IMG/VR virus record: IMGVR_UViG_3300046714_000526
Span: 1-37,222 of that record
DNA from: a virus
Strand: one strand, 5' to 3'
DNA: 37,222 nucleotides
A model generated the notes under the pieces. That model had not been told where the DNA came from, did no database searches, and saw only the letters and a list, made by a program, of their open reading frames with translations. Positions 3,327-34,076 of this stretch are shown piece after piece (the stretch's first letter is position 1; every line of letters begins with the position of its first letter). The position numbers and the translations under genes were made by a program.

Positions 3327-3761
3327 TTATGCAATGATCTGGAACTCCGATGCTTCAAATTCCAAAGTGACCAGACCGTAGTCGGAGCGGGAGCCGAAGT
3401 TCAACGGCAGCTCTCCGAACTCGCAGTCCGGGATCAGGACGCGGGGCCGGTCGCCGTTCGGGAACGCCAGGGTGGCCTTGATGTTCACCTTAGTGCCGGC
3501 GCTGCGCTTGCGGGCCTTGTCCACGACGGCCTGCTGCAGGTCGAAAATGTCGTCGTTCTCGAGGTGGAGCTCGATCCGGCCCCGCATGCCGCGGAAGATC
3601 GAGTCCTTGCGGTTCGTGGTCTCGCCGAGATACTGCTCCGACAAGATCTCGAGCTGGGTCGTCAGCTCCAGCGACCGCACCGTGCTGATCGTGCGCTTTG
3701 GTGCGCCGTCCACGATGATCACGACCGAGACTTCTTGACCCTTAATTCTGGGACTAGCCAC
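3327..3761 (-). CDS. Tail tube protein
   Basis: 144 aa, starting at GTG 3761 with an AGGAGCAGGA ribosome site just upstream. The protein is compact and beta-rich: VSVVIIVDGAPKRTISTVRS at the N-terminus and SRSDYGLVTLEFEASEFQIIA at the C-terminus. This fits the small beta-barrel tube subunit polymerised inside a contractile sheath. It follows the sheath gene and precedes the chaperones. A strong hairpin with a T-run lies 36 bases before its start codon, so its mRNA is probably attenuated, processed or separately initiated. Confidence 0.82.
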   Translation of the reverse strand: MASPRIKGQEVSVVIIVDGAPKRTISTVRSLELTTQLEILSEQYLGETTNRKDSIFRGMRGRIELHLENDDIFDLQQAVVDKARKRSAGTKVNIKATLAFPNGDRPRVLIPDCEFGELPLNFGSRSDYGLVTLEFEASEFQIIA

Positions 3762-6143: not shown

Positions 6144-6875
6144 CTACCTCTCCAAACTTTCCTGGCTCTTGGAGAGCCACTCATGTGGGGTCTTGTCGTG
6201 CTTCGCGAAATTGCAGCCACGGCACGCCGGGACGAGGTTGCTCACCTCGTGCTGACCGCCTCGAGATAACGGGGTCATGTGGTCAACAGTATCCGCCAAA
6301 TTCGGGCAGTACGCACACCGGCCTTCGAACAAGGCCATCACCGCTCGATATTGCTTCACCGAGATGCCGGGCCCACTCATCTCCTGGCCATGGCGTCGGC
6401 GCTGCGCTGCGTTCTTGATCTCACGAAATCGATCATGGTGTTTCACCTGCCAGCGTCGAACCGCAGCAATTCGAGCATCACGATTCGTGGCATAGGCGGC
6501 ACGACCTGCACACGTTGTACAAAGGTTCCGGCGACCGCCTGTACATGTCGCATGCTTTGGAAAACGGGTCAGGATCTGCCATACAGCGCACTTGGCGCAT
6601 ACTTTACCTTCAACCCCATCGACCGTCGAAACAGGAAACTTCGCGTAACCCTTCCGAATCGGGTTGGCCTTCATCTTGGCGCTAAGCAAAAGCTTCTGCT
6701 CATCTGTGCAGCGCACCTCACGCTTCACACCAAGCCGAAGCGCACGGTGCCTGATTCCCGTCTTGTTTCGGTGTGGCAGCGCTGCCAAAATGGTGGCCCA
6801 CTCAGCACGCGGATAAAGCTCACGCACTACGCCGTCTTGCGCATCAGTCCACGGAAACGCAGAGGCTCCCAGCAT
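6144..6875 (-). CDS. HNH endonuclease (copy 1 of 3), upstream of the sheath
   Basis: 243 aa, ATG 6875 without a clear ribosome site. The N-terminal 50 residues look helix-turn-helix-like (WATILAALPHRNKTGIRHRA). CAKC and CTTC pairs follow near residues 91-120, then a basic linker. The C-terminal HNH nuclease domain shows CAYC, a VDHMTPLSRGG catalytic segment, an Asn (SNLVPAC), CRGCN and a PHEWL end. It probably cuts DNA as a free-standing homing nuclease. It stops five bases before the sheath start. The CxxC-F-CxxC plus HNH architecture is shared with the genes at 9226 and 10576, so the three look like one family spread through the neck module. It has an extra N-terminal DNA-binding-like part the others lack. 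Confidence 0.88.
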   Translation of the reverse strand: MLGASAFPWTDAQDGVVRELYPRAEWATILAALPHRNKTGIRHRALRLGVKREVRCTDEQKLLLSAKMKANPIRKGYAKFPVSTVDGVEGKVCAKCAVWQILTRFPKHATCTGGRRNLCTTCAGRAAYATNRDARIAAVRRWQVKHHDRFREIKNAAQRRRHGQEMSGPGISVKQYRAVMALFEGRCAYCPNLADTVDHMTPLSRGGQHEVSNLVPACRGCNFAKHDKTPHEWLSKSQESLER

Positions 6876-9225: not shown

Positions 9226-9858
9226 TTATCCTGTTTCTCTCCACTCTTCAGGAGTCCGGTTTCGCTTTGACGCGTTACACCCACGACAGGCCGGCGCTAG
9301 GTTTTCTAAAGCATTAGACCCACCTTTTGAAACGGGGATGACATGGTCAATTTCTACGGCAAGACCGGAACAGTACGCACACGGTCGCTTCAACAATGCC
9401 AGCAAGGTGTCCACCGGCGGCAATTCACCGGCAGCGCGCCGTGCGTGCCGATACCGCGCCTTGAGCAAGTTGTCACGCTCACGGTTTTCGGCTCGCCACT
9501 TCACCATGTACACACGCTGATACTCATTCACGGCAGCACTGTTCTCACGACGCCACCGCTTTTTCCGCATCCTATCTAGCTCTGGGTGTGCGAGCGCGTA
9601 GCGCTTCCCAGCAGCCAAACGCGAAGCCCTTGCCTCTTCCTCAGTCTGAACCCGCACAGGTGTCTCCAACCCCGCCTGACGGCGCTTGTACCGTTGCTGA
9701 TAAGCCGCGACTTTTTTGCGATTCGCCGCGCGGTAAGCGTACGTCTTCACCTTCGAACACTTCTTACAGATCGATTCATGACCATCGGCGGCGCGCTTGT
9801 GCGGATAAAACTGCTCCAACGGCAGCTCCAGCAGGCAGTGCTTGCACGCCTTGACCAT
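9226..9858 (-). CDS. HNH endonuclease (copy 2 of 3)
   Basis: 210 aa, ATG 9858. The N-terminal zinc-finger-like module has CKHC, then LEQFYPHKRAADG, then CKKC. A long Arg/Lys/Ala-rich helical linker of about 110 residues follows. The HNH nuclease domain has CAYC, IDHVIPVSKGG, ENLAPACRGCN and PEEWRE. It has the same architecture as the gene at 10576. It sits between two structural genes and overlaps nothing, as expected of a free-standing homing endonuclease that moved into the neck operon. Confidence 0.88.
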   Translation of the reverse strand: MVKACKHCLLELPLEQFYPHKRAADGHESICKKCSKVKTYAYRAANRKKVAAYQQRYKRRQAGLETPVRVQTEEEARASRLAAGKRYALAHPELDRMRKKRWRRENSAAVNEYQRVYMVKWRAENRERDNLLKARYRHARRAAGELPPVDTLLALLKRPCAYCSGLAVEIDHVIPVSKGGSNALENLAPACRGCNASKRNRTPEEWRETG

Positions 9859-10575: not shown

Positions 10576-11250
10576 CTAACACGCCAGGGCAAACACCCGA
10601 GGCAGGAACGCCGATATGGCCAAGTCCCGGATCGCCTCGATGTCCACGCCTGACTTCCGGGCCCAGGCCTCGGGGGACCGGGCATGTTTTCGGCAGTTGC
10701 ACCGCTTGCAGGCCGGCACCACGTTCCCGGGAGAGTGGAACCCGCCGAGGACGATCGGTGTCAGGTGGTCGATGGTCATCTTCTCGTCGCAGCGGCAATA
10801 CGCGCAGCGCTGCCCGAACTCGGCCAGCACGACCTCCCAGTGCTCCTGCCTGAAACCGCCGTCCTGGTCCCGCTCCCGGGCCATGCGGACCTGCTGGCGC
10901 ATGCGCTTCATGGCCTTGCCATGCTCGGTCTGCTGGTATGCCTTGCGGCGTGCCTTGATCCGCTCCGGGTGCTTGGCTTGGTAGCGCTGCACCGTGGCGA
11001 TCATGGCTTCCGGGTCCTCAGCGTATCGCCGACGTACGTATTCACGCGCGTCAGCGCGGCGTTTATCACGGTTCCGTTCCCGACCACGATCCTGCCAAAC
11101 CTTAACTTTTTCAGGATTCGCCTTCGCGTATGCTCGCGTCGCCGCGATGTGGCACCGTTTGCACGCGTGCTGGTACCCACTTGGCTGGGCCCTGTTGGTG
11201 TAGAAATCGCCGATCGGCTTGCTCACCTTACATGTCGTGCACAGCTTCAT
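10576..11250 (-). CDS. HNH endonuclease (copy 3 of 3), downstream of capsid
   Basis: 224 aa from ATG 11250 (MKLCTTCKVSKPIGDFYTNR); an upstream in-frame start would lie in the capsid terminator. The zinc-finger-like module has CTTC and CKRC with FYTN between. A highly basic linker follows, then the HNH domain: CAYC, IDHLTPIVLGGFHS, GNVVPACKRCN, PEAWARK. It lies behind the capsid terminator and in front of the hairpin-rich non-coding stretch, which suggests a mobile insertion. Closest relatives in the window are the genes at 9226 and 6144. Confidence 0.88.
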   Translation of the reverse strand: MKLCTTCKVSKPIGDFYTNRAQPSGYQHACKRCHIAATRAYAKANPEKVKVWQDRGRERNRDKRRADAREYVRRRYAEDPEAMIATVQRYQAKHPERIKARRKAYQQTEHGKAMKRMRQQVRMARERDQDGGFRQEHWEVVLAEFGQRCAYCRCDEKMTIDHLTPIVLGGFHSPGNVVPACKRCNCRKHARSPEAWARKSGVDIEAIRDLAISAFLPRVFALAC

Positions 11251-11283
11251 AGCCCGTGCTGCAAGCTTACGCCGAAGTCCATA

Positions 11284-11320
11284 AAGCAAAGCCCCAACCC
11301 GGGGACACCAGGTTGGGGCT
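11284..11320 (-). terminator. Intrinsic terminator after the capsid gene
   Basis: AGCCCCAACC (minus strand 11320..11311) pairs perfectly with GGTTGGGGCT (11299..11290) across an 11-base loop and is followed by TTGCTTTAT. It begins 23 bases past the capsid stop. On the plus strand the same hairpin is followed by CAAGTTTTG, so it may work in both directions. It would separate abundant capsid mRNA from the HNH and neck genes. Confidence 0.85.
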
Positions 11321-15189: not shown

Positions 15190-15462
15190 TTAGAAGTTCC
15201 TCTTCAGCAAATCACGCAGCTTGGCCGGCAGCTTCTTGGCCGCAGCCTTCGCCCAGGGCGCCTTCTCTTCCAGGCCGACGGGGCGCGGGATCTCGGCGAT
15301 CCTGCGGTTGCCCTTCTCGGCGTCCAGCTCCTCAGACTCGGGCCCGCGGCCGTGCTGGCTCCAGGCGTGGCACGCGGACTCGGGCTGGATCGGCTCATCA
15401 CCGCCGGGGCCAGGAGCGCGATCGACGGGCATGGAACCGGACGTGAACACGGCCTTGGCCAT
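15190..15462 (-). CDS. Small hypothetical protein with basic C-terminus
   Basis: 90 aa from ATG 15462; an alternative ATG at 15498 would add 12 residues and neither has a clear ribosome site. The N-terminus is Gly/Pro-rich. The C-terminus is a basic helix (PWAKAAAKKLPAKLRDLLKR) ending in NF. It follows two fibre-like genes. The helix may bind nucleic acid or virion partners, but nothing is recognised. Confidence 0.5.
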   Translation of the reverse strand: MAKAVFTSGSMPVDRAPGPGGDEPIQPESACHAWSQHGRGPESEELDAEKGNRRIAEIPRPVGLEEKAPWAKAAAKKLPAKLRDLLKRNF

Positions 15463-15506
15463 GCCACTAGGGTACAGCGGATGCAAGGATCGCGCCATGC
15501 CAAGGC

Positions 15507-16010
15507 TCAGAGCTGGATCGCGAGGCCAGAAGAGCCGAGCAGGATCGTGGTGGTCCCGGCGCTGCGCTGCGCGCGTAGCGTCAGCGTACCCGGCGTGGAC
15601 ACCGTGATGGACCCGGCCAGCCTGGTCGGGAACGGGCCACCGGTGGCCCGGTTGGCACTGTCCACCATGGCCGTGTTGATGGCCTGGTTGGACCGGAAGC
15701 TAGCGGACGTCGCGGTCGATGCCAACACCGCGCTCTGGGCCACCCTGGTCACGGTCCCGGTGTAGTTCACCGACACGCCCACGATCCCGTTAGAGCCGGC
15801 CTGGGTGATCAGCAGATCGAAGCTGAAAGCGTAGGTGCCAACCTTGAGCACGAACGACAGCCCGGCGACGTCCGCCAAGGTCGTCCCCGCCACCGTGGCC
15901 GTGGCGGCCAGCTCAGCGACGAGATCGTCCTGGCCGGTGAACAACCGGTCGGTCGCGGCGAGCTGGGAAAGCTTCGCGCCGTCCTCGACCAGCGGCTTCT
16001 GGATCGCCAC
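15507..16010 (-). CDS. Fibre-like / decoration protein
   Basis: 167 aa from GTG 16010, five bases after the previous stop; a longer frame upstream lies inside the neighbour. A short N-terminal helix (AKLSQLAATDRLFTGQDDLV) precedes a Thr/Ser/Gly-rich beta domain. This domain has the FVLKVGTYAFSFDLLIT type of strand pattern seen in small trimeric fibre or decoration domains. It lies in the surface cassette next to another fibre-like gene. Exact family not recognised. Confidence 0.6.
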   Translation of the reverse strand: MAIQKPLVEDGAKLSQLAATDRLFTGQDDLVAELAATATVAGTTLADVAGLSFVLKVGTYAFSFDLLITQAGSNGIVGVSVNYTGTVTRVAQSAVLASTATSASFRSNQAINTAMVDSANRATGGPFPTRLAGSITVSTPGTLTLRAQRSAGTTTILLGSSGLAIQL

Positions 16011-16015
16011 TGAGG

Positions 16016-16603
16016 TTAGGCCAGGGTGACCGGGGTTTGGATCATCGCGCTGATGCTCGTCGCCGAGGTGGCGACGCCGAGGCGCTGCAGGAGGTGACCC
16101 GCCGTCACGGGCTGGGTCTCCTGGCTGGCACCGGGGGTGACATCGCTGAGGTACTGCGTGGCCCCCGGGGTCTTTCCGCTGACAGCGGTGTCGACGCCCT
16201 CCAGGTACACGGTGCATGGCGCCCCGGAGCCGGCGCCGAGCAGGGTGAAGCCGTGGGCCTCGCGGCTGTTGCTGGCGTCGGCGTTCCGCGCCTTGGCCCC
16301 GCTCGAGTTGAAGATGTTGACCCAGGCTCCCGCGGCGATGACCTCGGACGTGGTGATCACGGCGGTGTCGGCAGCAACGCCCACGGGCATCATCGTGCTG
16401 TCCAGGCGCCCAGACGAGTCCAAGGCGGCGAGCTGGCCCGAGCTGGGAGCGCCAGCGCTGGTCTGCACCGCGTTGGTTACGGTCCGGTCCAGCACGCCGG
16501 CAGCGTTCACGTTGGGGATCTTACCGGCGTCGGCGACCCCGGCGCTGACCTCGACGGTTCGCTCGAAGTTCTGCGGATCCTTCAAGAATGTTCGATTAGC
16601 CAT
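16016..16603 (-). CDS. Fibre/spike-like virion protein
   Basis: 195 aa, ATG 16603. The N-terminal half contains GKIPNVNAAGVLDRTVTNAV and GQLAALDSSGRLDSTMMPVG, repeats of a 'G.L.A.D..GRLD.TM.P' type seen in phage tail fibres and decoration proteins. The C-terminal half is beta-rich, with QYLSDVTPGASQETQPVTAG. Probably a trimeric surface protein. The neighbouring genes (collagen-like, glycosyltransferase) support a virion-surface role. Confidence 0.68.
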   Translation of the reverse strand: MANRTFLKDPQNFERTVEVSAGVADAGKIPNVNAAGVLDRTVTNAVQTSAGAPSSGQLAALDSSGRLDSTMMPVGVAADTAVITTSEVIAAGAWVNIFNSSGAKARNADASNSREAHGFTLLGAGSGAPCTVYLEGVDTAVSGKTPGATQYLSDVTPGASQETQPVTAGHLLQRLGVATSATSISAMIQTPVTLA

Positions 16604-16618
16604 ATATGTATGTCTACC

Positions 16619-17047
16619 CTAGGCCAATTTGACCGGTTGTTCCACGCGGACCAACACGCGAGTTGCTGTCAATGCCACGCCGATCACCACGAAGTAAGCG
16701 CCGCTGTAACCGCCCTGTGTCAAGCGGGCATCATCGCCGAGCCACACGGATTGACCCGGCGCCCACGACCACGACGCGTCCTCGACCTCGTCGCCAGGCA
16801 CAGCGACGTTGATCTCGGTGCCTGGTGCGCCGGCTTGCCGCGCGATCCCGATCGGCCATGCCCAACCCGGAACGGGGTTCAACGCCGGCACCACGGCGCC
16901 GGTGCCTATCGTCATGAGCACGTCCAAAGCCCGGATCGTGGAGGCCGCGATCCGGGACGATCCCGGCGTTGACGGGACCTGCGCCGTGAACGACACGCTG
17001 GCGCGCAGCGCGCGGAGCTCGTTGAGCAGGTCGTTCTGCACGCCCAT
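16619..17047 (-). CDS. Virion surface protein with MGVxNDxLNELR tag
   Basis: 142 aa from ATG 17047; upstream in-frame codons belong to the glycosyltransferase gene. The N-terminus MGVQNDLLNELRALRAS is nearly identical to that of the collagen-like protein at 19772. A beta-rich domain follows, with aromatic clusters (WAWPIG, SWSWAPGQSVWLGDD) and a C-terminal YFVVIGVALTATRVLVRVEQ. The shared tag suggests both proteins dock on the same virion site. The C-terminal domain could be a receptor-binding or decoration domain; family not recognised. Confidence 0.65.
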   Translation of the reverse strand: MGVQNDLLNELRALRASVSFTAQVPSTPGSSRIAASTIRALDVLMTIGTGAVVPALNPVPGWAWPIGIARQAGAPGTEINVAVPGDEVEDASWSWAPGQSVWLGDDARLTQGGYSGAYFVVIGVALTATRVLVRVEQPVKLA

Positions 17048-17064
17048 ATGCGTGCAGGATACCG

Positions 17065-18955
17065 CTAATCCAGGCACTTGGCCGCGGCCAGCTTCTCTTC
17101 GGCCAGGCGTTGATTCTCGCGGATGCGGGCGCGCTGGTCCGGCGGCGCAACATCGAGCAGCCGAAAGCACTCCGCCGCGCACAGCTCATAGTTCCCGACC
17201 CAGTACGCCGCGATGGCTAGCTCGTCCGCGGCCTGCCACTCGTACACCGAGGCCTCGACGCATAGCCGATCCGGTGGCCGCGGGATGCAGGCCGCGTGCT
17301 GGGCGTACAGGTACGCCAAGGCATAGTCGCCGCGAAAGCGATGCCACCGGGCCAGCGCGACCAACGGCTCGGCGCGCTGTGGCCTGGCCTGCCAGGCCCG
17401 CAAGAACGCCGCCGGGACACGATCGTCAGCCACTCCGGAGCGCTCGTAGATCCTGGCGATCCGCAGCAAGGCTAGCCAGGCCTCCTCGTCGAACCCGCCC
17501 GGCAGCGCGGCGCGGCGCTCGTACGCCGTCACGGCGTCGCGGGTCAAGCCAGCCAGCTCCAAGCTCTGCGCCAAGTAATGCCACGCCCTGGCGTCTGTCG
17601 GGTCCTTCTCCAGCCTGGCCACAAGCTGCTTGGCCTCGCGAGCGTAGCGCTCCGTTGGTGGCTCCTTGCTCGCGGCACCATCGCGCAGGTTTCGGATCGC
17701 GGCCTGCTTGGCCAGGCTGCCAACGCTCGCCGCCGAAGTGTCAAGCAATTCGTGGACATCCCCGTTGTATTTCCACGGCAGGCCGAGGCGGACTACACGC
17801 ACCTTAGGGTACCGGAGTTCGCCCATGCGCTCTTCAACTTCCCAGACGTCGCTGGTCTCGATGCCGACGAAAGCCCCGGGCAAGACATCCTCCAGCACCT
17901 CGTCAGCGTCCAGGATCAGGCCATAGGTGCCATACGGCGCGGCCAGCGCCAAAGCTTCGCCGCGGTTGTGCCCGTAGCTCATCCACGGCCGGCGGTGCAA
18001 GGCGCCGGGCAGGTGGCCGAGCTTCTCCTGGATGATCCTTGGCGTGGTGGCGCCACGCCCGTTGAAGCTGATCGACCATGCACCGATATGTGGCAGCGCG
18101 GAATCGATGGCCCTGCCGATCGTGGCGTCCTCGTCCTGGCAAACCATGACCAGCACCAAGCGTGGTCTCCCCAGCGCCGCCGCGATCGTGGCGGTCATGC
18201 TCGGCACAGGCTCGCAGTGGTCCACGGCCGACTGCAGGTAGGCATCGTCACAGAGCTGTGCGCACCAATCCGCGAGGGCTTCGTACCCGCTCAGCACGGC
18301 CCCGGCATCGAATGCAACGTTGTCCTCGTCGCCAGCGCTGAACTCCGACACAACACGCCAGCCGTTGTGCAGGGCCCACAGCACGCGAGGGGCCTCAAAG
18401 ATCGCGGCGTCGTAGTAATGCACGTTCAGCGCGACCTTGGCACTCGCCATCAAGGCGTCACGCTCGGCGCCGTACACCCCGAAAGGCACGCGCAACACCT
18501 TGAGGCCACGGGTCTCAAGCCCATTCAGCACGGCCTCACGGCGTGCGTTGAGGGCACCAGCGAACGCGACGTCGTAGTTCGGGGTGAGAACCCGTGGCAT
18601 CTTGAGCTGGCTAGGGTGGAACCCCACGTGGACGATCGCCGCGGGCGGGCGCAACCCGACCTCGCCGTAACGGCTGGCGTTGATCGCGCTGTATTCCCAG
18701 ACCTCATGTCGGTTGAACAGCTCGACCACGTCCGGCGGGAACCACCCGGACCCGACCTGCTCCAGGTTGTAGACGATGGCGTCCGGCGGCAATTCCCAGC
18801 CCAGCGCCACGGCGTGCTGGGCCCCGAGCACGATCGCCCTGCGGCCTACCGGCGGCCGGCCAAGCACCACCAGCGAGTCATGGCCGAGCTCGCGCAGGCT
18901 GGCGTCGATCGACTCCGCCACCTCCCGGAACGCCTCGACGTGAGGGTTGGTGCCG

Positions 18956-18984
<29 letters not shown>
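17065..18984 (-). CDS. Two-domain glycosyltransferase with TPR-like tail
   Basis: 639 aa from ATG 18984, overlapping the methyltransferase gene by 29 bases. Residues 1-270 resemble a CgeB-like/GT1-type fold: YDVAFAGALNARREAVLNGL near 137-156, then ALNVHYYDAAIFEAPRVLWA near 185-204. Residues 275-415 resemble a GT2 domain, with a CQDED start, a DADE metal-binding motif near 359-362 and a VHE near 410-412. Residues 440-639 are helical and repeat-like (TPR-type), with ARAWHYLAQSLELAGLTRDA. Such fusions transfer sugars to proteins or polysaccharides. Neighbours are a methyltransferase and collagen-like and fibre-like virion genes, so virion glycosylation is plausible. Host-surface modification is the alternative. 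Donor and acceptor cannot be read from sequence. Confidence 0.8.
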
Positions 18985-20276
<1,292 letters not shown>

Positions 20277-20317: not shown

Positions 20318-21220
20318 TCAGCTCCGGCGGTACTTCCGGGCGCCGCGAAGCTCATATCCCAACACCCCTTGTCCGGGCAGCCACGGGACCAACACGGCTC
20401 TATCGTGCGGGCGGTTTGGGGGGTGATCCCAGGACCCGATCATCAGCGCCGAGCTGAACTTGCCGATCGCTGACGACGGCATGCGGAACTTGCCGCCAGG
20501 CTTGGCGAGCTGACCGTGCATCACCATGGAATCCGGAGCGACGCGGTTGTCCAGCGGGCGCCCCGTGGCGTCGTCCACCAGCTCGGTCCATCGCTTCATC
20601 AGGCCGGGCTCGCCAGCCCACAGGATGCTCATGCCGACGTCCTGGGCAGAATTAAAGGCCGCAGACGCCTCGGTGGCAGCAACTCGCTCGACCTTCCACC
20701 ACTGGTCCCCGGCAGCTTCCACGGCGGCATCGATCGCCTGGCCGACCCTAGCTTCGTCCACGGGAACCAAGGCCAAGCGCTCCCGGATCAGCGCCGCGGC
20801 ATCCGTGGCGTTCGTGATCATCACGCGGCGCCGCATCCCCTCGAAGTATGCCCGCTTGGCGGCCAAGGCCTGCGCCGCCGTCCTGGCGTCCTCAAGCACC
20901 GCCACGTTCAAGCCGAGGCGCCCGGCGGCACCGGCAACGACGCCCAACCCGTCGGCCAGGGTGTCAGCGGTGGACGCCACGATGACCTGGCCGACGCCAT
21001 GGAACACGCGGGTAACGGCGTGCTGGGCCGCGGTCACGATCTGGCCCAAGGTGGCCCGCGTCACGGGATCACGACCACCAGCGCGCACCGCGCGGGACAC
21101 CGCGCGGCCCATGGCCCCGATCCCGGCGTCGAAGGCCTGGCGGGCCGGCGCGATGTTTCGGCGCTCCGACCGGGACAGCGCTGCCAGCATCTCGCGCGGG
21201 CTGATCGGCTTGTTAGCCAC
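20318..21220 (-). CDS. Mu F-like minor head protein
   Basis: 300 aa from GTG 21220. The N-terminal 120 residues are helical. The C-terminal part shows the pattern of phage Mu F / SPP1 gp7 head-morphogenesis proteins. This comprises RVAATEASAAFNSAQDVGMS (the 'R-T/A-E-...-N' helix), KRWTELVDDATGRPLDNRVA, DSMVMHGQLAKPGGKF, and a PPNRPHDRAVLVPW end in place of the usual 'HPNCRC'. These proteins bind portal and capsid early in head assembly. Here the gene lies about 9.7 kb from the portal gene instead of next to it. Confidence 0.82.
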   Translation of the reverse strand: MANKPISPREMLAALSRSERRNIAPARQAFDAGIGAMGRAVSRAVRAGGRDPVTRATLGQIVTAAQHAVTRVFHGVGQVIVASTADTLADGLGVVAGAAGRLGLNVAVLEDARTAAQALAAKRAYFEGMRRRVMITNATDAAALIRERLALVPVDEARVGQAIDAAVEAAGDQWWKVERVAATEASAAFNSAQDVGMSILWAGEPGLMKRWTELVDDATGRPLDNRVAPDSMVMHGQLAKPGGKFRMPSSAIGKFSSALMIGSWDHPPNRPHDRAVLVPWLPGQGVLGYELRGARKYRRS

Positions 21221-21413
21221 GCCGTATCATGGCACGCGGGAAGCCTACGAAGCAGCGCCAGACCAACCACAACCCCAAGCGCCAAGCCAAACCACGCGAG
21301 ACCACGAAGCGAGTGATCTCGCGGCGGCCATGATAGACCGTGAAGCCACCGAGGTCGTTCTCGATGGCTGTCAGCTCGCGGAGGTCGTGCTCAACTTGGC
21401 GGAAACCACGCAC
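21213..21413 (-). CDS. Small membrane-anchored hypothetical protein
   Basis: 66 aa from GTG 21413, overlapping the minor head gene start by eight bases. The N-terminal helix is charged (FRQVEHDLRELTAIENDLGG). Residues about 42-60 form a hydrophobic stretch rich in Trp/Leu/Val (AWRLGLWLVWRCFVGFP), probably membrane-spanning. No ribosome site is clear. The protein is plausible but could be chance. Confidence 0.45.
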   Translation of the reverse strand: MRGFRQVEHDLRELTAIENDLGGFTVYHGRREITRFVVSRGLAWRLGLWLVWRCFVGFPRAMIRRG

Positions 21414-21438
21414 TAAACGCTAGCTTACGCGAACAGGT

Positions 21439-22203
21439 TTACAGCGCCTGGACCAATGCGAGGTCGGCGCCGCTCAGTTCGCGTTCGAACACACCCATAC
21501 CGGCAAGGTGGCCGCCGAACGGGAAGCCGCCGCCATCGAAGTCACCTAGGATGAGCGAGGTGTTGCCGAGCGCGAGGGCGCCGGCCGTCACCAGGTCCGG
21601 CGCTCCGATCGCCGTCGCTCCGCGATAGAGGCGCCACGTGTTCGCGTAACCACCGCCAACTGGCTTGGTCATCACCCACGTATTCCAGACATCCAGGCCC
21701 GTCAGGGCCGACCACTGCAGCGACGCGGAGCCTTCGAAGTTCCCCGTGTCCAGTGCGCCGGTTTCAAACGACACGCTCATTTCAGGGTCTCCCGAGGTGC
21801 CCATACTCAGTAGCGTGGGAAACGTGCTCAGGTCCGCCGTGCACTTCATCTTCCACACGATCGTCAGCGCCGGGTCCGCGGCGAGTCCCAGCGCATCACC
21901 GCGCGCAAAGGTGTTCGGTACGAGCGGATCGAGCACGAGCGCGATGTCGCTGCCCTCGAACGTGGTGCCAACGGGAGCACCGCTGAGCAGGTTCTTGCCG
22001 GCGCCGCTCTGGTCGTAGAGGTGGGTGGCGTCGTAGGGCAAGCCCGTGAACGTGGCCAGCTTCTGACGCGTCCACCAAAACGCACGCAGCGAGGCCTTCG
22101 CCGGAGCGCTCAGCCCATCGAGCGCAGCAACATGCACCGGAGCCAAGCCGCCCAAGCTCAACGGGAAGCCGTCGACGCCGACGATCGGGCCGAAGCCAGC
22201 CAT
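21439..22203 (-). CDS. LamG/concanavalin-like lectin-fold protein
   Basis: 254 aa from ATG 22203, in a TGATG overlap with the previous stop. The segments AFWWTRQKLATFTGLPYDAT, then HLYDQSGAGKNLL, TIVWKMKCTADLS and WNTWVMTKPVGGGYANTWRL fit a LamG / concanavalin A-like beta sandwich as found in phage tail and capsid adhesion proteins. LYDQSG with later DFDGGGFPFGGHLAGMGVFE matches the typical final strands. Such domains bind glycans. It probably is a virion adhesin encoded in the cargo region. Confidence 0.72.
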   Translation of the reverse strand: MAGFGPIVGVDGFPLSLGGLAPVHVAALDGLSAPAKASLRAFWWTRQKLATFTGLPYDATHLYDQSGAGKNLLSGAPVGTTFEGSDIALVLDPLVPNTFARGDALGLAADPALTIVWKMKCTADLSTFPTLLSMGTSGDPEMSVSFETGALDTGNFEGSASLQWSALTGLDVWNTWVMTKPVGGGYANTWRLYRGATAIGAPDLVTAGALALGNTSLILGDFDGGGFPFGGHLAGMGVFERELSGADLALVQAL

Positions 22204-22694
22204 CAATCCAGCTCCGCGGCCCAGATCTCGACCACGCTGCCGGAGGCCAGGTTGCCGCCCTGCGGCACCAGGTGGAACGCCATGTCCTGCAGCGGCAGAT
22301 CGAACGGCGCCGTCGTGAAGTCCTCGCCGTCACCGATGTCGCGCGCCGCGGGGGGCGTAGGCGGGGAGGGCCCTACAGGCTCCTGCCAATCAGTGCGGAC
22401 GTCCCCGTTGGCGTCGTGCTTGGCGTAGGCCAGCACGAGCCGGAGGTCGAAGCGACGCGAACTATCAGCGCCGGTGACCCGCATGATTCCGCTGAAGCCC
22501 TTGGTGCGGGCCTCAGAACCATCGCCCTCCGGGCGCAGCTTGGCATGCGCGATCGGGCTTCCGACCTCAACGTTGGGGGCTGAGGCCGGCTTCGGCGCGT
22601 TCGCCGCGGCGTCGCCATCCCACACCGTGCCGTCCCCGGCCCAACCACCGGCACCCGCCGTCACCGACCTGATCAATCGTAGGTTCCTGCTCAC
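22203..22694 (-). CDS. Hypothetical protein paired with LamG-like gene
   Basis: 163 aa from GTG 22694, in a GTGA overlap with the previous gene. Gly/Ala-rich N-terminus, then a beta-rich domain with RFDLRLVLAYAKHDANGDVR and a C-terminal AFHLVPQGGNLASGSVVEIW. Coupled by TGATG to the LamG-like gene, so the two are probably one functional unit on the virion. No family recognised. Confidence 0.62.
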   Translation of the reverse strand: MSRNLRLIRSVTAGAGGWAGDGTVWDGDAAANAPKPASAPNVEVGSPIAHAKLRPEGDGSEARTKGFSGIMRVTGADSSRRFDLRLVLAYAKHDANGDVRTDWQEPVGPSPPTPPAARDIGDGEDFTTAPFDLPLQDMAFHLVPQGGNLASGSVVEIWAAELD

Positions 22695-23185
22695 GGTGCG
22701 AGTGTAGCAGGCTGCGCCGCCGGGGGCGAAACCACGGCCCTGGCGCGCGCGATCGCTATCGCCGCTGTGTTCACGACCCCGGTCTGGCCCCAGATCTCAG
22801 GGTCGGTGTGGTCCTTGTCGCCGCCATTGCCGATGACCGTGGCGCCGCGGATCGCGTGGCTGAGCTCGTGGCACACCAGCCAAGGCTGGTCGGCACCGTA
22901 AGCCAGCATGACGTTGATCCGGGTGCCGTCGTCGTCCATTGTGGTGCAGCCCGTCAGCGGGGTGCCGCCGTGGCAGCGCTCGGTCACCTGGCGCGAGGAT
23001 CCGAAGGTCACCGTGGCGTTGCGCACGGCCTCGACGTTGCCCGGAGCGCCCTTGATCGCGGTCCAAGCGTCCAAGGTGGCCTGCAGCTCGTCGGGGTACA
23101 GGTCGGCGACGTGGGGCAGGCTGCCGATGGGCTCCGCCACGCAGCCGGCGGCCAGCGTTGCCAGGATCAGGGTCAGCGCTTTCAC
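22691..23185 (-). CDS. Zincin-like lipoprotein (HExxH)
   Basis: 164 aa from GTG 23185, in a GTGA overlap with its neighbour. Residues 1-15 form a lipoprotein signal (LTLILATLAAGC, lipobox LAAG-C). The mature part contains HELSH (HExxH zinc motif) with a candidate third ligand His 16 residues later (GDKDHTDPEIWG). A CHGGTPLTGC pair may form a disulphide. It is predicted to be exported and lipid-anchored and to act as a metalloprotease in the cell envelope. This is unusual phage cargo; it may alter the host surface or exclude other phages (inference). The zinc motif is clear, but catalytic activity is not shown. Confidence 0.75.
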   Translation of the reverse strand: MKALTLILATLAAGCVAEPIGSLPHVADLYPDELQATLDAWTAIKGAPGNVEAVRNATVTFGSSRQVTERCHGGTPLTGCTTMDDDGTRINVMLAYGADQPWLVCHELSHAIRGATVIGNGGDKDHTDPEIWGQTGVVNTAAIAIARARAVVSPPAAQPATLAP

Positions 23186-23514
23186 GACTTCACCTCGAGC
23201 CCGCTCAGGATGTCGTCGACGCGCTTGGCCATGTTCGCCTTGGCGACGTGGCGCTCGCCGATCCGGCAGAGCTCGGCCGCGGGATCCTTGCTGGGCAAGT
23301 CCTCGTCCACCGCTGCGAGCAAGGCGCCGGCACGGCGTCCGGCGTCCACGATGCCGGCAAGGTCGTCGGCATCGGCACCGAGGCCGATCAGGCGGATGAT
23401 CCGCATGTCCAGGGCTTCGCTGCGGTCGCTGCCGCCGAGGCGGATGGCAAGCTCCGCGGTCTCCGCGCTGACGATCAGCATCGCGATCTCGCGCACCAGT
23501 TGCTTGGTTTCCAT
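23182..23514 (-). CDS. Hypothetical helical protein
   Basis: 110 aa, ATG 23514, starting one base after the previous stop. Almost wholly helical: METKQLVREIAMLIVSAETA, then ADADDLAGIVDAGRRAGALL, and a C-terminal AKANMAKRVDDILSGLEVKS. Its C-terminal ERHVAKANMAKRVDDILSGL resembles the IARRNMARTLEGLK end of the upstream neighbour (23516), hinting at a common origin or shared interaction. Function unknown. Confidence 0.62.
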   Translation of the reverse strand: METKQLVREIAMLIVSAETAELAIRLGGSDRSEALDMRIIRLIGLGADADDLAGIVDAGRRAGALLAAVDEDLPSKDPAAELCRIGERHVAKANMAKRVDDILSGLEVKS

Positions 23515-23515
23515 G

Positions 23516-23791
23516 TTACTTCAGTCCTTCCAGGGTTCGGGCCATGTTGCGGCGCGCGATCTGCGCGCAGACTTCTGCGAGACGGTGGTGACCGAGCTGC
23601 TTCAGCGCCGCCACGCGGTCCATGTCGCGGTCGCCCAAGCGGGCGTCGATGATCACGGCGCGCGGGTCGTAGAAGGCGCCGCAGTCGCAGCGCTCCGGTA
23701 CTCGGTCGCCGTCGAGGACGCTCAGCCTGGCTTCGCAGTCCGGACACTCGCAGGTCGCGATCACGAACTCGGCGGCGTCTGGTCTGTCCAT
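23516..23791 (-). CDS. Zinc-ribbon hypothetical protein, first gene of minus operon
   Basis: 91 aa, ATG 23791. CECPDC near residue 14 and CDCG near 35 form a likely zinc ribbon. The C-terminal helix (AEVCAQIARRNMARTLEGLK) resembles that of the next gene. A sigma-54-like element lies 12 bases before the start codon and should drive this gene and the operon behind it (lipoprotein and LamG genes). Unknown function. Confidence 0.68.
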   Translation of the reverse strand: MDRPDAAEFVIATCECPDCEARLSVLDGDRVPERCDCGAFYDPRAVIIDARLGDRDMDRVAALKQLGHHRLAEVCAQIARRNMARTLEGLK

Positions 23792-23802
23792 GACTCTGGT
23801 AC

Positions 23803-23821
23803 TTGCACGTGGTGTGCCAAG
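23803..23821 (-). promoter_or_regulatory. Sigma-54-like element P1
   Basis: Minus strand CTTGGCACACCACGTGCAA. GG and GC dinucleotides are 12 bases apart, as in TGGCAC-N5-TTGCA (-24/-12). It ends 12 bases before the ATG at 23791 and matches P2, 215 bases away on the other strand, at 18 of 19 positions. Confidence 0.6.
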
Positions 23822-23979
23822 TCACGGTGCTTGGTTTATAGCCAATTTACCGCGGTTTACGCGGATCCGGGTATAGATCCTGACCCGAAAGTGCCGGTTT
23901 TCGTCACTATCGGTGCGCAAAACGTCACCGGGCAAGCCTGCGGAACTGCTAGCGATCCGGCTTGCGTACACTTCACGGC

Positions 23980-23995
23980 ATGACTCGATTGTCAT
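23980..23995. promoter_or_regulatory. Dyad operator/enhancer candidate
   Basis: ATGAC-N6-GTCAT inverted repeat. Its core, TGAC-N6-GTCA, ends exactly 42 bases before element P2. The equivalent TGAC-N6-GTCA in the other divergent region (33728..33741) is also 42 bases behind its promoter P3. It is a plausible site for an activator or repressor. Confidence 0.5.
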
Positions 23996-24036
23996 AGCAG
24001 CGCCGATCAGTGCTGCCGATCCTGGCTCAAGGCCGG

Positions 24037-24055
24037 CTTGGCACAGCACGTGCAA
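24037..24055 (+). promoter_or_regulatory. Sigma-54-like element P2
   Basis: CTTGGCACAGCACGTGCAA on the plus strand, 13 bases before the ATG at 24068. An AAGAGG ribosome site lies in between. Same spacing as P1, P3 and P4. Confidence 0.6.
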
Positions 24056-24067
24056 CAAGAGGCAGGC

Positions 24068-24328
24068 ATGACCAACACAATCAAGACCGCCCGATCGATC
24101 AAGATGGCCGAGAAGCGCGCCGCCAAGGCCGCCAGCAAGGCCCGCATCGAAGCCGCTCACGCCGAGGCCCAGGCCGTGGCAACCTCGGGCAAGTGCCCGC
24201 AGTGCGGCGCCGGCATTCGGCACAACCTGGCCCTGACCGGCTGGATCCAGTGCAAGCAGTACGGCGCGGTCGGGTTCCGCGCGGACGGCAACAAGGTTGA
24301 CTGCAGCTACCAAGGGTTCACCCAGTGA
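24068..24328 (+). CDS. Zinc-ribbon protein with basic helical N-terminus
   Basis: 86 aa from ATG 24068; a longer frame would start inside element P2. Residues 1-45 are a Lys/Arg/Ala-rich helix (KMAEKRAAKAASKARIEAAH). A zinc ribbon follows with CPQCG near 43, then a Cys at WIQCKQ and DCSYQG. It could bind nucleic acid. It is the first gene of the plus-strand group. Its stop overlaps the next start by GTGA. Function unknown. Confidence 0.72.
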   Translation: MTNTIKTARSIKMAEKRAAKAASKARIEAAHAEAQAVATSGKCPQCGAGIRHNLALTGWIQCKQYGAVGFRADGNKVDCSYQGFTQ

Positions 24329-24777
24329 TCATCACGGACTGCCTGGGCCGGGAGCGCGAGGTCACCCGGACCTGGCCCGATGGCTCCTACAACTGCCCGT
24401 TCTGTGACTACGCCGTGCCAGCAGCCGGCCTCGAGTTCGACCACGGGGTCAAAGACCTAGTGCCGGTCCACGTCGGCTGCCAGAACCCGGCATGCTTCGC
24501 CCGCGTCAACCCACCCTACCCGGCCGACAGGGCTCGTGAGGACCTCCGCTGCCACGAGGCCCAGCTCGCCGAGGAAGTCCGGCGGAAGCGCGAGGTCGAG
24601 TGGGTCAGGCAGGCTCAAAAGCAGCGCACCGAGGAGCACGCGGTGTGGCAAGCCTCACAGCGCGCGGAGTGTGTGACCCGGGGATGCTGCCTGAATTGCC
24701 TGTTCCAGCCCGGCTGGCAGCGCGTGAAGTTCGTCAAGCACAGGAAGGTGTGCCCAAGGCAGACCCGTGGCTTTTGA
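24325..24777 (+). CDS. Multi-cysteine zinc-binding hypothetical protein
   Basis: 150 aa from GTG 24325, in a GTGA overlap. CPFCD near residue 24 and CQNPAC near 52 form a first zinc knuckle. The middle is a charged coiled coil (AQLAEEVRRKREVEWVRQAQ). The C-terminus has RGCCLNC and a final CPR. An inverted repeat lies at the stop codon. Translational coupling with the previous zinc ribbon suggests joint action. Not recognised. Confidence 0.7.
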   Translation: MIITDCLGREREVTRTWPDGSYNCPFCDYAVPAAGLEFDHGVKDLVPVHVGCQNPACFARVNPPYPADRAREDLRCHEAQLAEEVRRKREVEWVRQAQKQRTEEHAVWQASQRAECVTRGCCLNCLFQPGWQRVKFVKHRKVCPRQTRGF

Positions 24778-25100
24778 ATTGGATCCTTCAATTCATCACC
24801 CCAACCACCCTGACTTCCCAATCCAACCAGGCTCCAGAAGATCAACAGGGAGTTACTCAAGGCCAATCCGTTCCTATCGGAACGTCTTGTCCTGCTGTGA
24901 TTTGGAAAACTTTTCTGTCAAGTACGCAAACTTTGCATAGCAAATCCTGCGAAGAAACCATGAATTCAGTGATCGAAGTTATGTCCCTAACTAATGGGGT
25001 ATGAAAAGTTTGCATAGGTGTGCGACTCTCCTCTACATGACTCGGCGATCTGGAAAGATAAGTGGAGTCCCGCTAAAGCAGTTAGTTTAGAATCATAGGC
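24778..25100. promoter_or_regulatory. AT-richer intergenic region with repeats
   Basis: 323 bases without a convincing gene and visibly richer in A and T than the rest. It includes a TTTGCATAG direct repeat at 24932..24940 and 25009..25017. A perfect CGTTCC-TATC-GGAACG hairpin lies near 24869..24884. At the upstream gene end, GAATTG-GATCCTT-CAATTC spans the left edge. A TTGCAT at 25010 followed 17 bases later by CTACAT is a possible weak promoter for the 25101 gene. It could hold regulator sites or an origin. Confidence 0.5.
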
Positions 25101-25514
25101 ATGTCCATGAAAAGAAAGTACATTACCGAAGACGGCAAGATCTGTGCGTACTGCGTGAAGTTCAAGATGTGTGATCCGCCGAGCGAGGTCGGCCGCGAGA
25201 TCACCGGCGTGTGCCTGGAGCGCAACGAGACACAGATCCGTGACGGGTGCTGCTACCGGTGGGCGAACCGGCTGCCACATGGCGTCACCATCGAAGACTT
25301 GGCAGCTGCCTACAAGGCGAACCCAAGGCCTGCGCCTGTACCGGTGCCGACGGCGCCACCGCGCGTTTCCTTGCCGGTCCTGAACCAGGGCGGCGTGACG
25401 GTCACCAAGCTGGCCTACATCGAGCCGGAGTGGGCCCGGACCTACGACGGCGGAGTATGGAGAGGTTCGGCCAAGCGCCGCGGCAAGGCCTCGCGCAAGG
25501 GCAAGCGGTCCTAG
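25101..25514 (+). CDS. Cysteine-rich hypothetical protein
   Basis: 137 aa from ATG 25101 (ATG 25107 is also possible: MSMKRKY). CAYC near residue 16, then CDPP, CLER and DGCCYRW: several cysteines suggest a metal site. The C-terminal half is Pro-rich, then ends in a basic tail (KRRGKASRKGKRS) that may bind nucleic acid. It converges with the HNH gene, overlapping it by four bases. Function unknown. Confidence 0.66.
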   Translation: MSMKRKYITEDGKICAYCVKFKMCDPPSEVGREITGVCLERNETQIRDGCCYRWANRLPHGVTIEDLAAAYKANPRPAPVPVPTAPPRVSLPVLNQGGVTVTKLAYIEPEWARTYDGGVWRGSAKRRGKASRKGKRS

Positions 25515-32524: not shown

Positions 32525-33190
32525 CTAGGAATCGAAGCCGAACACCAGCCGGATCTCCTCGGGCTTGCGGAACGGCAGCCCCTGGCAGGAAGTCAACGCG
32601 CGGGCCCACGTCAGGAAGCCTTGGCAGGACTCTGCCAGGGGTTCCATCCACTCATGCTTGGCGTAGTGCCAGTTGAGACCGTCGAGGCAGTGGTGTCGTA
32701 CCGGGCCCATCTCGGCCTCCAGCGCGTCCGAGACCTCGGGGATCTCGCCGTCGCAGCGGTCCAAGATCAGCCGCTTCAGGTCGGCCACCGAGCACGTCAC
32801 GACGCTGCCACCGCTAATGTCGTACCTGTATCTTGATGGCTCATCCGTTTTCTTGCGCATCATGTCCAACACCACCGCGGCGTTGACCCATGCGCTGTTC
32901 GTGACGCGCCACTGATCCCAGTCGTGGTTCAGGACCTCGGCCAGGGTCAACCAGCTCGGGGTGTGGTCTATGCCGTGCTCGGCCCAAGCCTTGGTCTCCT
33001 CGGCCATGTCCTTGGGCAAGCCGCGGGGCGCCGCGATCGGGGCCAAGCCGTAGCTGCGCCGCACGCCGGCCAGGGCGCCGAACACGCTGTAGTTCCGTTC
33101 ACCATACGCGGCCCGCTCGTCGATCACGAGCTCCCACTTGTTGGCGTTGTGGTCGTACGCCTCGACCACCATGTGGATGTCGCAGTCCAA
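32525..33190 (-). CDS. CDIH-family phage protein
   Basis: 221 aa. Start TTG 33190 was chosen because the protein then begins MDCDIHMVVEAY, the N-terminus known from a widespread phage family of unknown function that starts M-x-CDIH. A GTG at 33202 is possible. A centre with KWELVIDERAAYGERNYSVF and later SWLTLAEVLNHDWDQW matches that family (RNY...FA...R and S.L.l.El...dW). It stops 20 bases before the portal start. Role unknown. Confidence 0.75.
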   Translation of the reverse strand: MDCDIHMVVEAYDHNANKWELVIDERAAYGERNYSVFGALAGVRRSYGLAPIAAPRGLPKDMAEETKAWAEHGIDHTPSWLTLAEVLNHDWDQWRVTNSAWVNAAVVLDMMRKKTDEPSRYRYDISGGSVVTCSVADLKRLILDRCDGEIPEVSDALEAEMGPVRHHCLDGLNWHYAKHEWMEPLAESCQGFLTWARALTSCQGLPFRKPEEIRLVFGFDS

Positions 33191-33192
33191 TG

Positions 33193-33378
33193 CTATTCGC
33201 ACCCCGGGCAGCATCCCCGCCGCACGGCCATCCCGCAGCCCAGGCAGCGCGCTGCGGTGGCGTAGGCCGCGATCGCGTCGGCGGCCACGGCGTTCATCCG
33301 CTCCACCGACTGCGGCCTGGTGGCGGCGACCAGGGCGGCCTGGAGGTTGGGGTGCGAGGGTTTTGGTTGGTTGGTCAT
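33193..33378 (-). CDS. Small zinc-knuckle protein
   Basis: 61 aa, ATG 33378, one base after the previous stop. The N-terminal part is helical (NLQAALVAATRPQSVERMNA). The C-terminus has CLGCG and CCPGC ten residues apart, ending CCPGCE, a likely zinc knuckle. It belongs to the operon behind element P3. Function unknown. Confidence 0.62.
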   Translation of the reverse strand: MTNQPKPSHPNLQAALVAATRPQSVERMNAVAADAIAAYATAARCLGCGMAVRRGCCPGCE

Positions 33379-33379
33379 C

Positions 33380-33655
33380 CTAGATCTCTCCGGTCTCGTT
33401 GCAGGCGTTGATGAAGTTGGTCTCGGCGACGTCGCACGCGACCTGCGCGAGCTTGAACGCTGCCTTAGCAGCCAAGAACTCAGCGTCGCCGATCTCGCGG
33501 GCGTGATAGGCCTTGCTGGTCACGGTGTACTTACGCGAGGCAGCGCGGAAGGTCTCCAGCGCGGCGTCGTACGCGACGGCGTGCGCGGTCGGAGCTTTGG
33601 GTGCCACGGCGGGGTCAGCATCGATCGTGCCGTCGAGGTTGATTTGCTTGCTCAT
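33380..33655 (-). CDS. Hypothetical helical protein, first gene after P3
   Basis: 91 aa, ATG 33655. Short Asp-rich N-terminus (MSKQINLDGTIDADPAVAPK), then three helices with AYDAALETFRAASRKYTVTS and FKLAQVACDVAETNFINACN. A sigma-54-like element lies 12 bases before the start. It heads the operon that leads to the portal gene. Unknown function. Confidence 0.66.
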   Translation of the reverse strand: MSKQINLDGTIDADPAVAPKAPTAHAVAYDAALETFRAASRKYTVTSKAYHAREIGDAEFLAAKAAFKLAQVACDVAETNFINACNETGEI

Positions 33656-33666
33656 GCGCCTAGATA

Positions 33667-33685
33667 ATGCACACCGCGTGCCAAG
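33667..33685 (-). promoter_or_regulatory. Sigma-54-like element P3
   Basis: Minus strand CTTGGCACGCGGTGTGCAT, ending 12 bases before the ATG at 33655. It shares CTTGGCAC-N5-RTGCA with P1, P2 and P4. Confidence 0.6.
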
Positions 33686-33727
33686 CCGGGATCAGGCTTG
33701 AAGCCGGCGGCACCGCAACGCCAGCTC

Positions 33728-33741
33728 TGACATCCCTGTCA
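33728..33741. promoter_or_regulatory. Dyad operator/enhancer candidate
   Basis: TGACATCCCTGTCA, an inverted TGAC-N6-GTCA repeat, 42 bases behind element P3. It has the same core and the same distance as the dyad behind P2. Confidence 0.5.
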
Positions 33742-33890
33742 TGGTCAACACTGTGCGCAACCCGAAAGCTTAATGGTTCCGCGGAGCTAGGCGGTGACAA
33801 TTCGCGCGCGCAAGGTGACGGAAAGTGGCACTTTCTGCTTATGGCTGGCAGCGCTCGCGACGAAACCATTGCGGATTCTGGCGCTGAAGG

Positions 33891-33909
33891 CTTGGCACGG
33901 GCTATGCAA
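33891..33909 (+). promoter_or_regulatory. Sigma-54-like element P4
   Basis: CTTGGCACGGGCTATGCAA on the plus strand, ending 12 bases before the ATG at 33921. The following GTACCAG is identical to that after P1, so similarity extends into the leader. Confidence 0.6.
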
Positions 33910-33920
33910 GTACCAGGAAC

Positions 33921-34076
33921 ATGACCAAGCCAACCAAGACCTTCATCGTGTCCGGGCAGCACCGGGTCTCGGGCAAGCTTACAGCCGTGTCCAGGCCTGA
34001 TGCTAAGGCTGCCAACACCGCCGCCAAGCAACTCATGTCCGCCGGCTTCATCAAGCTGCAGGTCGTGTTCGTGTGA
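33921..34076 (+). CDS. 51-aa plus-strand protein under P4
   Basis: ATG 33921 to TGA 34076. Predicted beta-beta-alpha-beta pattern: TFIVSGQH, KLTAVSRP, helix KAANTAAKQLMSAGF and a final KLQVVFV strand. This is the look of a compact small fold. The ribosome site is weak (AGGA two bases before ATG), which fits a very short or leaderless mRNA from P4. It converges with the terminase gene. Function unknown. Confidence 0.55.
   Translation: MTKPTKTFIVSGQHRVSGKLTAVSRPDAKAANTAAKQLMSAGFIKLQVVFV

Follow-up and report, generated by a model that had tools for sequence, protein, structure and literature searches.

Two divergent regions in a phage fragment

The IMG/VR record IMGVR_UViG_3300046714_000526, analysed here over its whole stretch of 37,222 nucleotides (the window), is a 37-kb fragment which carries tape measure, sheath, capsid, portal and terminase genes. 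Two divergent regions of about 270 bp each lie within it, the P1/P2 region (cassette A) and the P3/P4 region (cassette B). Their boxes and the first genes on either side are:

23516..23791, minus strand: first gene on the P1 side, 91 aa, zinc-ribbon-like CxxC pairs, no family
23803..23821, minus strand: P1, -24/-12-like box CTTGGCACACCACGTGCAA, whose TGCA stops 12 nt short of the ATG at 23791
24037..24055, plus strand: P2, -24/-12-like box CTTGGCACAGCACGTGCAA, whose TGCA stops 13 nt short of the ATG at 24068
24068..24328, plus strand: first gene on the P2 side, 86 aa, CPQCG motif, no confident family
33380..33655, minus strand: first gene on the P3 side, 91 aa, no confident family
33667..33685, minus strand: P3, counterpart of P2, box CTTGGCACGCGGTGTGCAT, whose TGCA stops 12 nt short of the ATG at 33655
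33891..33909, plus strand: P4, counterpart of P1, box CTTGGCACGGGCTATGCAA, whose TGCA stops 12 nt short of the ATG at 33921
33921..34076, plus strand: short ORF on the P4 side, 51 aa, no family

The initial annotation had described P1 and P2 as outward-facing 19-mers with 215 bases between them and with GG and GC 12 bases apart in both, and our analysis confirmed these positions and spacings. The distances to the start codons, given there as 12 and 13 bases, differ from the 11 and 12 bases that actually lie between each 19-mer and its start codon by counting convention only. The strongest and longest inverted repeat of the window proved to be a second divergent pair of the motif (33667-33909), which had been missed.

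TGGCAC-N6-TGCA is kept in all four boxes, while the six intervening bases vary (ACCACG, AGCACG, GCGGTG and GGGCTA, in boxes followed by 12, 13, 12 and 12 bases to the ATG, respectively). When up to 3 mismatches to the 19-mers were allowed, P1 and P2 were the only matches in the window; dinucleotide shuffles gave 0.03 on average and never 2. TGGCAC-N6-TGCA occurs five times in the window against 0.09 expected from order-2 Markov simulations, and the box followed by 11-13 nt and an ATG occurs four times against none in 100 simulations. The fifth TGGCAC-N6-TGCA match, which lies inside the terminase coding region, is probably due to chance. Neither the exact P1/P2 19-mer pair nor TTGGCAC-N6-TGCAAGTACCAG was found in IMG/VR. 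One weaker candidate was noted elsewhere:

15482..15497, minus strand: weaker fifth candidate TGGCGCGATCCTTGCA, directly past the stop of gene 15507-16217, in an accessory block

For this candidate the in-frame ATG lies 19 nt on, and around 12-14 nt there is only a GTG. The accessory block (15190-19675, minus strand) that contains this sigma-54-like box, at 15497, also encodes a glycosyltransferase-like protein, nearest to one of a Tunturiibacter phage, and a methyltransferase. Three related endonuclease VII/HNH genes (6144-6875, 9226-9858 and 10576-11289, minus strand), possibly homing endonucleases, stand among the capsid and tail genes of the window.

The gene at 23516..23791 heads a run of minus-strand genes that extends from 23791 to 21439; a homolog search with its protein gave only an 18-residue match. 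This run includes a small predicted lipoprotein (22691-23185, minus strand) with a LATLAAGC signal and a HELSH zinc-protease-like motif, which has no family match. No homolog was found for the protein of 24068..24328, and the genes downstream of it (24325-24777 and 25101-25514) have no confident family. The gene at 33380..33655 is followed by 33193-33378, by 32525-33214 (phrog_10141) and then by the portal gene. No gene for RpoN or for an enhancer-binding protein was found within the 37-kb fragment, and no repressor gene was recognised beside either divergent pair.

The cassette is duplicated and contains conserved inner sites

The DNA between the start codons of cassettes A and B is 60% identical and aligns end to end in one orientation, with a score of 205 against 98.7 +/- 9.2 (maximum 135) for shuffled sequences. 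The inner part alone, without the boxes, scores 131.5 against 68.9 +/- 8.0, and alignment in the wrong orientation reaches only 74. The cassettes stand in opposite orientation in the window, P1 pairing with P4 and P2 with P3: P1 and P4 both read TGCAAGTACCAG, and P2 and P3 both read CCGGCTTGGCAC-N5-GTGCA. The conserved islands of the alignment include the boxes and inner sites. The inner sites of the two cassettes are:

23903..23928, no strand given: two GTCAC direct repeats of cassette A, 21 bp apart, shared central block
23981..23994, no strand given: dyad TGAC-TCGATT-GTCA of cassette A, about 72-87 bp upstream of the predicted P2 start
33728..33741, no strand given: dyad TGACA-TCCC-TGTCA of cassette B, about 71-86 bp upstream of the predicted P3 start
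33794..33819, no strand given: GTGAC/GTCAC repeat pair of cassette B, with the 21-bp spacing of cassette A
33821..33835, no strand given: perfect palindrome GAAAGTGGCACTTTC of cassette B, beside the repeats, degenerate in cassette A

The GTCAC repeats and the TGAC-N6-GTCA dyad are among the best-kept inner stretches of the two cassettes, at equivalent places. In cassette A the predicted P1 start is some 110-137 bp away from the repeats and the predicted P2 start some 138-165 bp; overall, the repeats keep about 100-165 bp to the predicted starts on either side, and all inner dyads and repeats fall at about 70-165 bp. Enhancer sites of sigma-54 promoters usually lie in this range, and the inner repeats and dyads are candidate activator (enhancer) sites.

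The spacers of P1 and P2 have 5 of 6 bases in common and almost none in common with their counterparts in P4 and P3, a likeness that hints at gene conversion between the inverted copies.

Both cassettes lie in accessory gene blocks

The capsid protein has more than 80 relatives in IMG/VR, the best 80 of which are at 51-67% identity. Isolated phages are related to the record only remotely (Komagataeibacter phages phiKX1 and phiKX2, Streptomyces phage Kromp), and comparison of the region with 50,697 phage records by nucleotide similarity found nothing. Within the phage group we scanned 40 records chosen for their capsid protein (51-67% identity, two at 37%), and TTGGCAC-N6-TGCA was absent from all 40. 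The relatives compared have no counterparts of genes 21213-25514 and 32525-34076, beside both cassettes, and the core genes which border those blocks are closer together or adjacent in them; both cassettes are therefore part of accessory gene blocks. The initial annotation had proposed that loss of the motif from relatives which keep the genes would speak against a promoter. In the relatives compared, the flanking genes are absent along with the motif, and the absence of the motif is thus no refutation.

A prophage search for the host gave nothing informative, the sole genome match being a 12.8-kb contig in an Armatimonadetes MAG in which RpoN is present and the motif absent. Across the phylum Armatimonadota, a weak test, the excess of the motif was only mild, and G053 gave no match. 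In one distant relative (L004), a perfect palindrome of about 20 bp, AAGTGAGGTCGACCTCACTT, occurs twice (3679-3699 and 4242-4262, 542 bp apart), each time shortly before the start of an ORF, and is perhaps a control site of that lineage's own.

The same layout recurs in unrelated phages

A scan of IMG/VR for GGCTTGGCAC-N6-TGCA-N11-13-ATG returned 23 stretches, many of which were isolated or palindromic repeats. The full design was found before open reading frames in four contigs, G041, G042, G043 and G044, whose core genes are not related to those of the window phage. G041 is a 62-kb phage with 65-68% GC, and in the 60 kb of it that were read there are 12 exact boxes including the seed, 9 of them with an ATG at 11-13 bases against none for the control pattern (p about 4e-12, or 1e-10 without the seed box); the boxes recur before many small genes. 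Divergent pairs, for which the contigs had not been selected, are carried by G042, which its terminase and portal/Mu-F domains mark as Mu-like, and by G044, where the second box has one mismatch and a 22-bp perfect palindrome lies between the boxes. Inner regions of the unrelated phages have no homology to cassette A or B.

A separate scan for divergent pairs contributed two further cases, G045 and G046, the only matches of that scan which we use as evidence. In G045 (L187, 16091-16307) a divergent -24/-12-like pair encloses three tandem dyads of the GGACACTTGTCCG type, a clear candidate for an enhancer array; its boxes lie 25-27 nt from the ATG, with Shine-Dalgarno-like AAGGAG/CAGGAG in the extra space. 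In G046 one box is 30 bases from the ATG, with AGGAGG between, and the other is 13 bases away. The other divergent-pair matches in IMG/VR were often palindromic repeat arrays and were set aside. Among the contigs from that scan, L008 (3912-4051), L010 (4821-4954), L012 (5667-6037) and L017 (10917-11176) carry palindromes made of two facing sigma-54-like boxes, for example TGGCACACTTATTGCATATGCAAATTCCATGCCA, each repeated several times; these arrays may be decoys for sigma-54 or a form of mobile palindromic repeat.

We collected 22 sites, not independent since several share ancestry and most seeds came from a pattern requiring an ATG at 11-13 nt, and they follow the pattern TGGCAC-R-NNN-Y-R-TGCA with few exceptions. 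The ATG is preceded by C in 19 sites and by T in the other 3, against a genome-wide share of C of about 45%. The start codon is ATG in all 22 close sites, GTG and TTG being frequent among the ORFs of these genomes; as the scan required ATG, only the additional G041 sites, where GTG was also allowed, are an independent test of the start codon.

No activator gene scored above the cut-off in the other motif-bearing phages tested. The motif was absent from the Myxococcus phages Mx4 and Mx8, which the G041 portal had suggested. A cupin gene common to the window and G041 was rejected as a clue to the host, being widespread and not host-informative.

The boxes as probable sigma-54 promoters with predicted, almost leaderless transcripts

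Sigma-54 promoters consist of TGGCAC and TGC separated by 5-7 nt (PMC12316311), and all four boxes of the window have this spacing, with GG and GC 12 bases apart. Among the 22 sites, the base at -15 is G in 18, A in 3, C in 1 and T in none, which departs from the T preferred by sigma-54 (TTGC). Because T is a preference and not an absolute requirement, the mismatch lowers the case for sigma-54 membership without excluding it. Functional E. coli sigma-54 promoters with A at -15 exist. The -15 base is the weightiest counter-argument; the host may have a preference of its own at this position, or another factor may read the boxes.

The position of the boxes also bears on their function. The distance from box to ATG is short where there is no ribosome site (about 12 bases) and longer where there is one (25-30 bases), and since it tracks the presence of a ribosome site the box appears to act like a promoter which starts transcription about 12 bases downstream. 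Indirect signs that would fit leaderless transcription are found at the close sites: the box is 11-13 nt from the start codon, this codon is ATG throughout and a pyrimidine precedes it in 22 of 22. The mapped leaderless mRNAs of S. meliloti all begin with AUG (PMC3616915). The palindrome of G044 and the dyads of G045 would, as expected, fit activator sites. An excess of sigma-70 promoters was not seen, and none is conserved in the divergent regions. Promoter-like distances, sigma-54 geometry and the palindromes and dyads together therefore favour host sigma-54 and nearly leaderless transcripts. We consider it reasonably probable that the boxes are -24/-12 promoters for host sigma-54, activated from shared central enhancer sites and giving leaderless or nearly leaderless mRNAs. 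The proposal of the initial annotation, a sigma-54-like promoter with an almost leaderless mRNA, thus holds in part, as the best fit to the box spacing and to the layout in unrelated phages, and is weakened by the base at -15 and by the failure to find an RpoN or activator gene in the fragment.

We infer sigma-54 binding, an activator, the start sites and leaderless translation, which would combine as follows. Each divergent region would be a control cassette with two outward-facing -24/-12 promoters for the host sigma-54 RNA polymerase. Between the boxes, the dyads and repeats would be bound by an enhancer-binding activator that is driven by ATP, so that one set of sites could fire both directions. 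With the ATG 13-15 nt beyond the conserved C of the -12 element, transcripts are predicted to begin 0-3 nt before the ATG, and their translation would be leaderless or nearly so. The cassette is present twice, through an old duplication, each copy inside an accessory gene block, and the accessory genes, possibly with the minus-strand structural genes beyond, would be tied to whichever host signal feeds the activator.

Alternative explanations

The boxes could be promoter elements of the same geometry that are read by a factor other than host RpoN, for example a phage-specified factor or RNA polymerase which we did not recognise, again with a start at the ATG. The class consensus TGGCACR-NNN-YRTGCA departs from the usual sigma-54 box at -15/-16, an activator gene was found neither in the fragment nor in the other motif-bearing phages tested, and G041 has many such boxes before small genes, all of which speak for this reading. 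That unrelated phages have the box in common could also be taken this way, but points rather to a factor of the host; moreover, TGGCAC and TGC at the sigma-54 distance would then be a coincidence, and the 60 kb of G041 read contain no ORF for a giant virion RNA polymerase. We therefore regard this explanation as rather unlikely.

If the 19-mers were instead operators, a repressor or activator of the phage or the host would bind the imperfect dyad TTG(G)CAC-N5-GTGCAA over both start regions and, much as in a lysis-lysogeny switch, control transcription in both directions. Divergent gene pairs are a usual setting for operators, the partly dyad-symmetric GCAC...GTGC would suit an operator too, and the GCA/TGC pairing is present in 22 of 22 sites, with a fourth pair in 17 of 22. 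The dyad, however, has an extra G on one arm only, and its inner pairs are uncompensated (an A after CAC leaves the partner C, and a partner A leaves the C), so that the 22 sites lack the symmetry of a dyad for a dimeric regulator. The fixed distance to the ATG, longer where a ribosome site is present, better suits a promoter, and neither a repressor gene nor a conserved sigma-70 promoter was recognised beside the pairs. An operator is thus unlikely. Both this alternative and the recombination site also raised in the initial annotation have little support.

The fixed distance to the ATG and the recurrence before many small genes of G041 would be expected too of an element in the mRNA leader, an RNA hairpin or translation control like the start-associated sequences of cluster K mycobacteriophages, which likewise stand directly before start codons (PMC3203893). 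No fold is conserved: the predicted folds of the window's four copies differ from one another, and shuffled sequences fold just as well (z -0.02, -0.67, 0.98 and -1.20). Rfam gave no match, the box is without a ribosome-site consensus, and no conserved upstream promoter was found which would transcribe it; we hold this explanation to be improbable.

Chance likeness, or a recombination or duplication scar with no regulatory role, could draw on the duplication of the cassettes within insertion-prone blocks, but is very improbable given a box frequency far above simulation, conserved islands within diverged cassettes and a layout repeated in unrelated phages. For the arrangement of boxes and start codons, the simulations exclude chance.

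Implications

Phages are generally thought to use sigma-70 promoters or polymerases of their own. Transcription by sigma-54 is fully silent without an activator, and phage genes under sigma-54 would therefore be tied to a stress or nutrient signal of the host. If true, a start fixed at the ATG would couple sigma-54 control with leaderless translation, a pairing in phages that we did not find in the open-access literature. The same literature, with subscription papers outside the search, gave no report of leaderless sigma-54-type promoters or of divergent sigma-54 cassettes in phages. The sigma-54 reading predicts rpoN-dependent expression of phage genes, and the promoter class has a simple signature which can be searched for in any phage genome.

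More broadly, it is conceivable, although on balance doubtful, that many unrelated phages of at least one environmental host clade share a leaderless promoter class, TGGCACR-NNN-YRTGCA-N12-ATG, often divergent around a central enhancer. Such a class would provide enhancer-dependent (sigma-54-like) switching of gene blocks, possibly through a variant of host sigma-54 or a phage factor with its own preference at -15.

Comparison with known systems

The virion RNA polymerases of N4-like phages read hairpin promoters, where a short inverted repeat encloses a small loop some 12 bases ahead of the start, and the boxes resemble them in having a short inverted repeat about 12 bases before the predicted start. 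They differ from the N4 system in that no giant RNA polymerase gene is seen (neither the 60 kb read of G041 nor the 37-kb window, both of which may be incomplete records, shows an ORF of this kind) and in that the stem pairs show no compensating changes, and an N4-like hairpin promoter was dropped on these grounds.

In cluster K mycobacteriophages, SAS/ESAS is a conserved element repeated before the start codons of many small genes (PMC3203893). The boxes are similarly repeated directly before the starts of small phage genes, and some SAS have inverted-repeat extensions; unlike SAS, which has another sequence and is tied to translation initiation sites, the box has promoter spacing, is without a ribosome-site consensus and lies farther from the ATG where a Shine-Dalgarno sequence is present. 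Sigma-54 regulation is also linked to phages by phi1422, which encodes a sigma-54-type regulator (PMC3391216), and by Pectobacterium phage Q19, with a putative sigma-54-like protein (PMC7693777), but those are regulator genes, whereas here there are sites without a recognised regulator gene.

Compared with the usual sigma-54 (RpoN) promoters, the boxes differ in lying within phage genomes, in having G or A at -15 and in standing so close to the ATG, at about +1 to +4, that there is almost no leader, on a fragment that encodes neither a recognised RpoN nor an activator. In common with -24/-12 promoters they have a six-base gap between TGGCAC and TGC, a distance of 12 bases from GG to GC and a variable spacer. 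Dyads that would serve as enhancer sites for a bEBP lie roughly 70-165 bp upstream, where a pair of promoters can share central sites.
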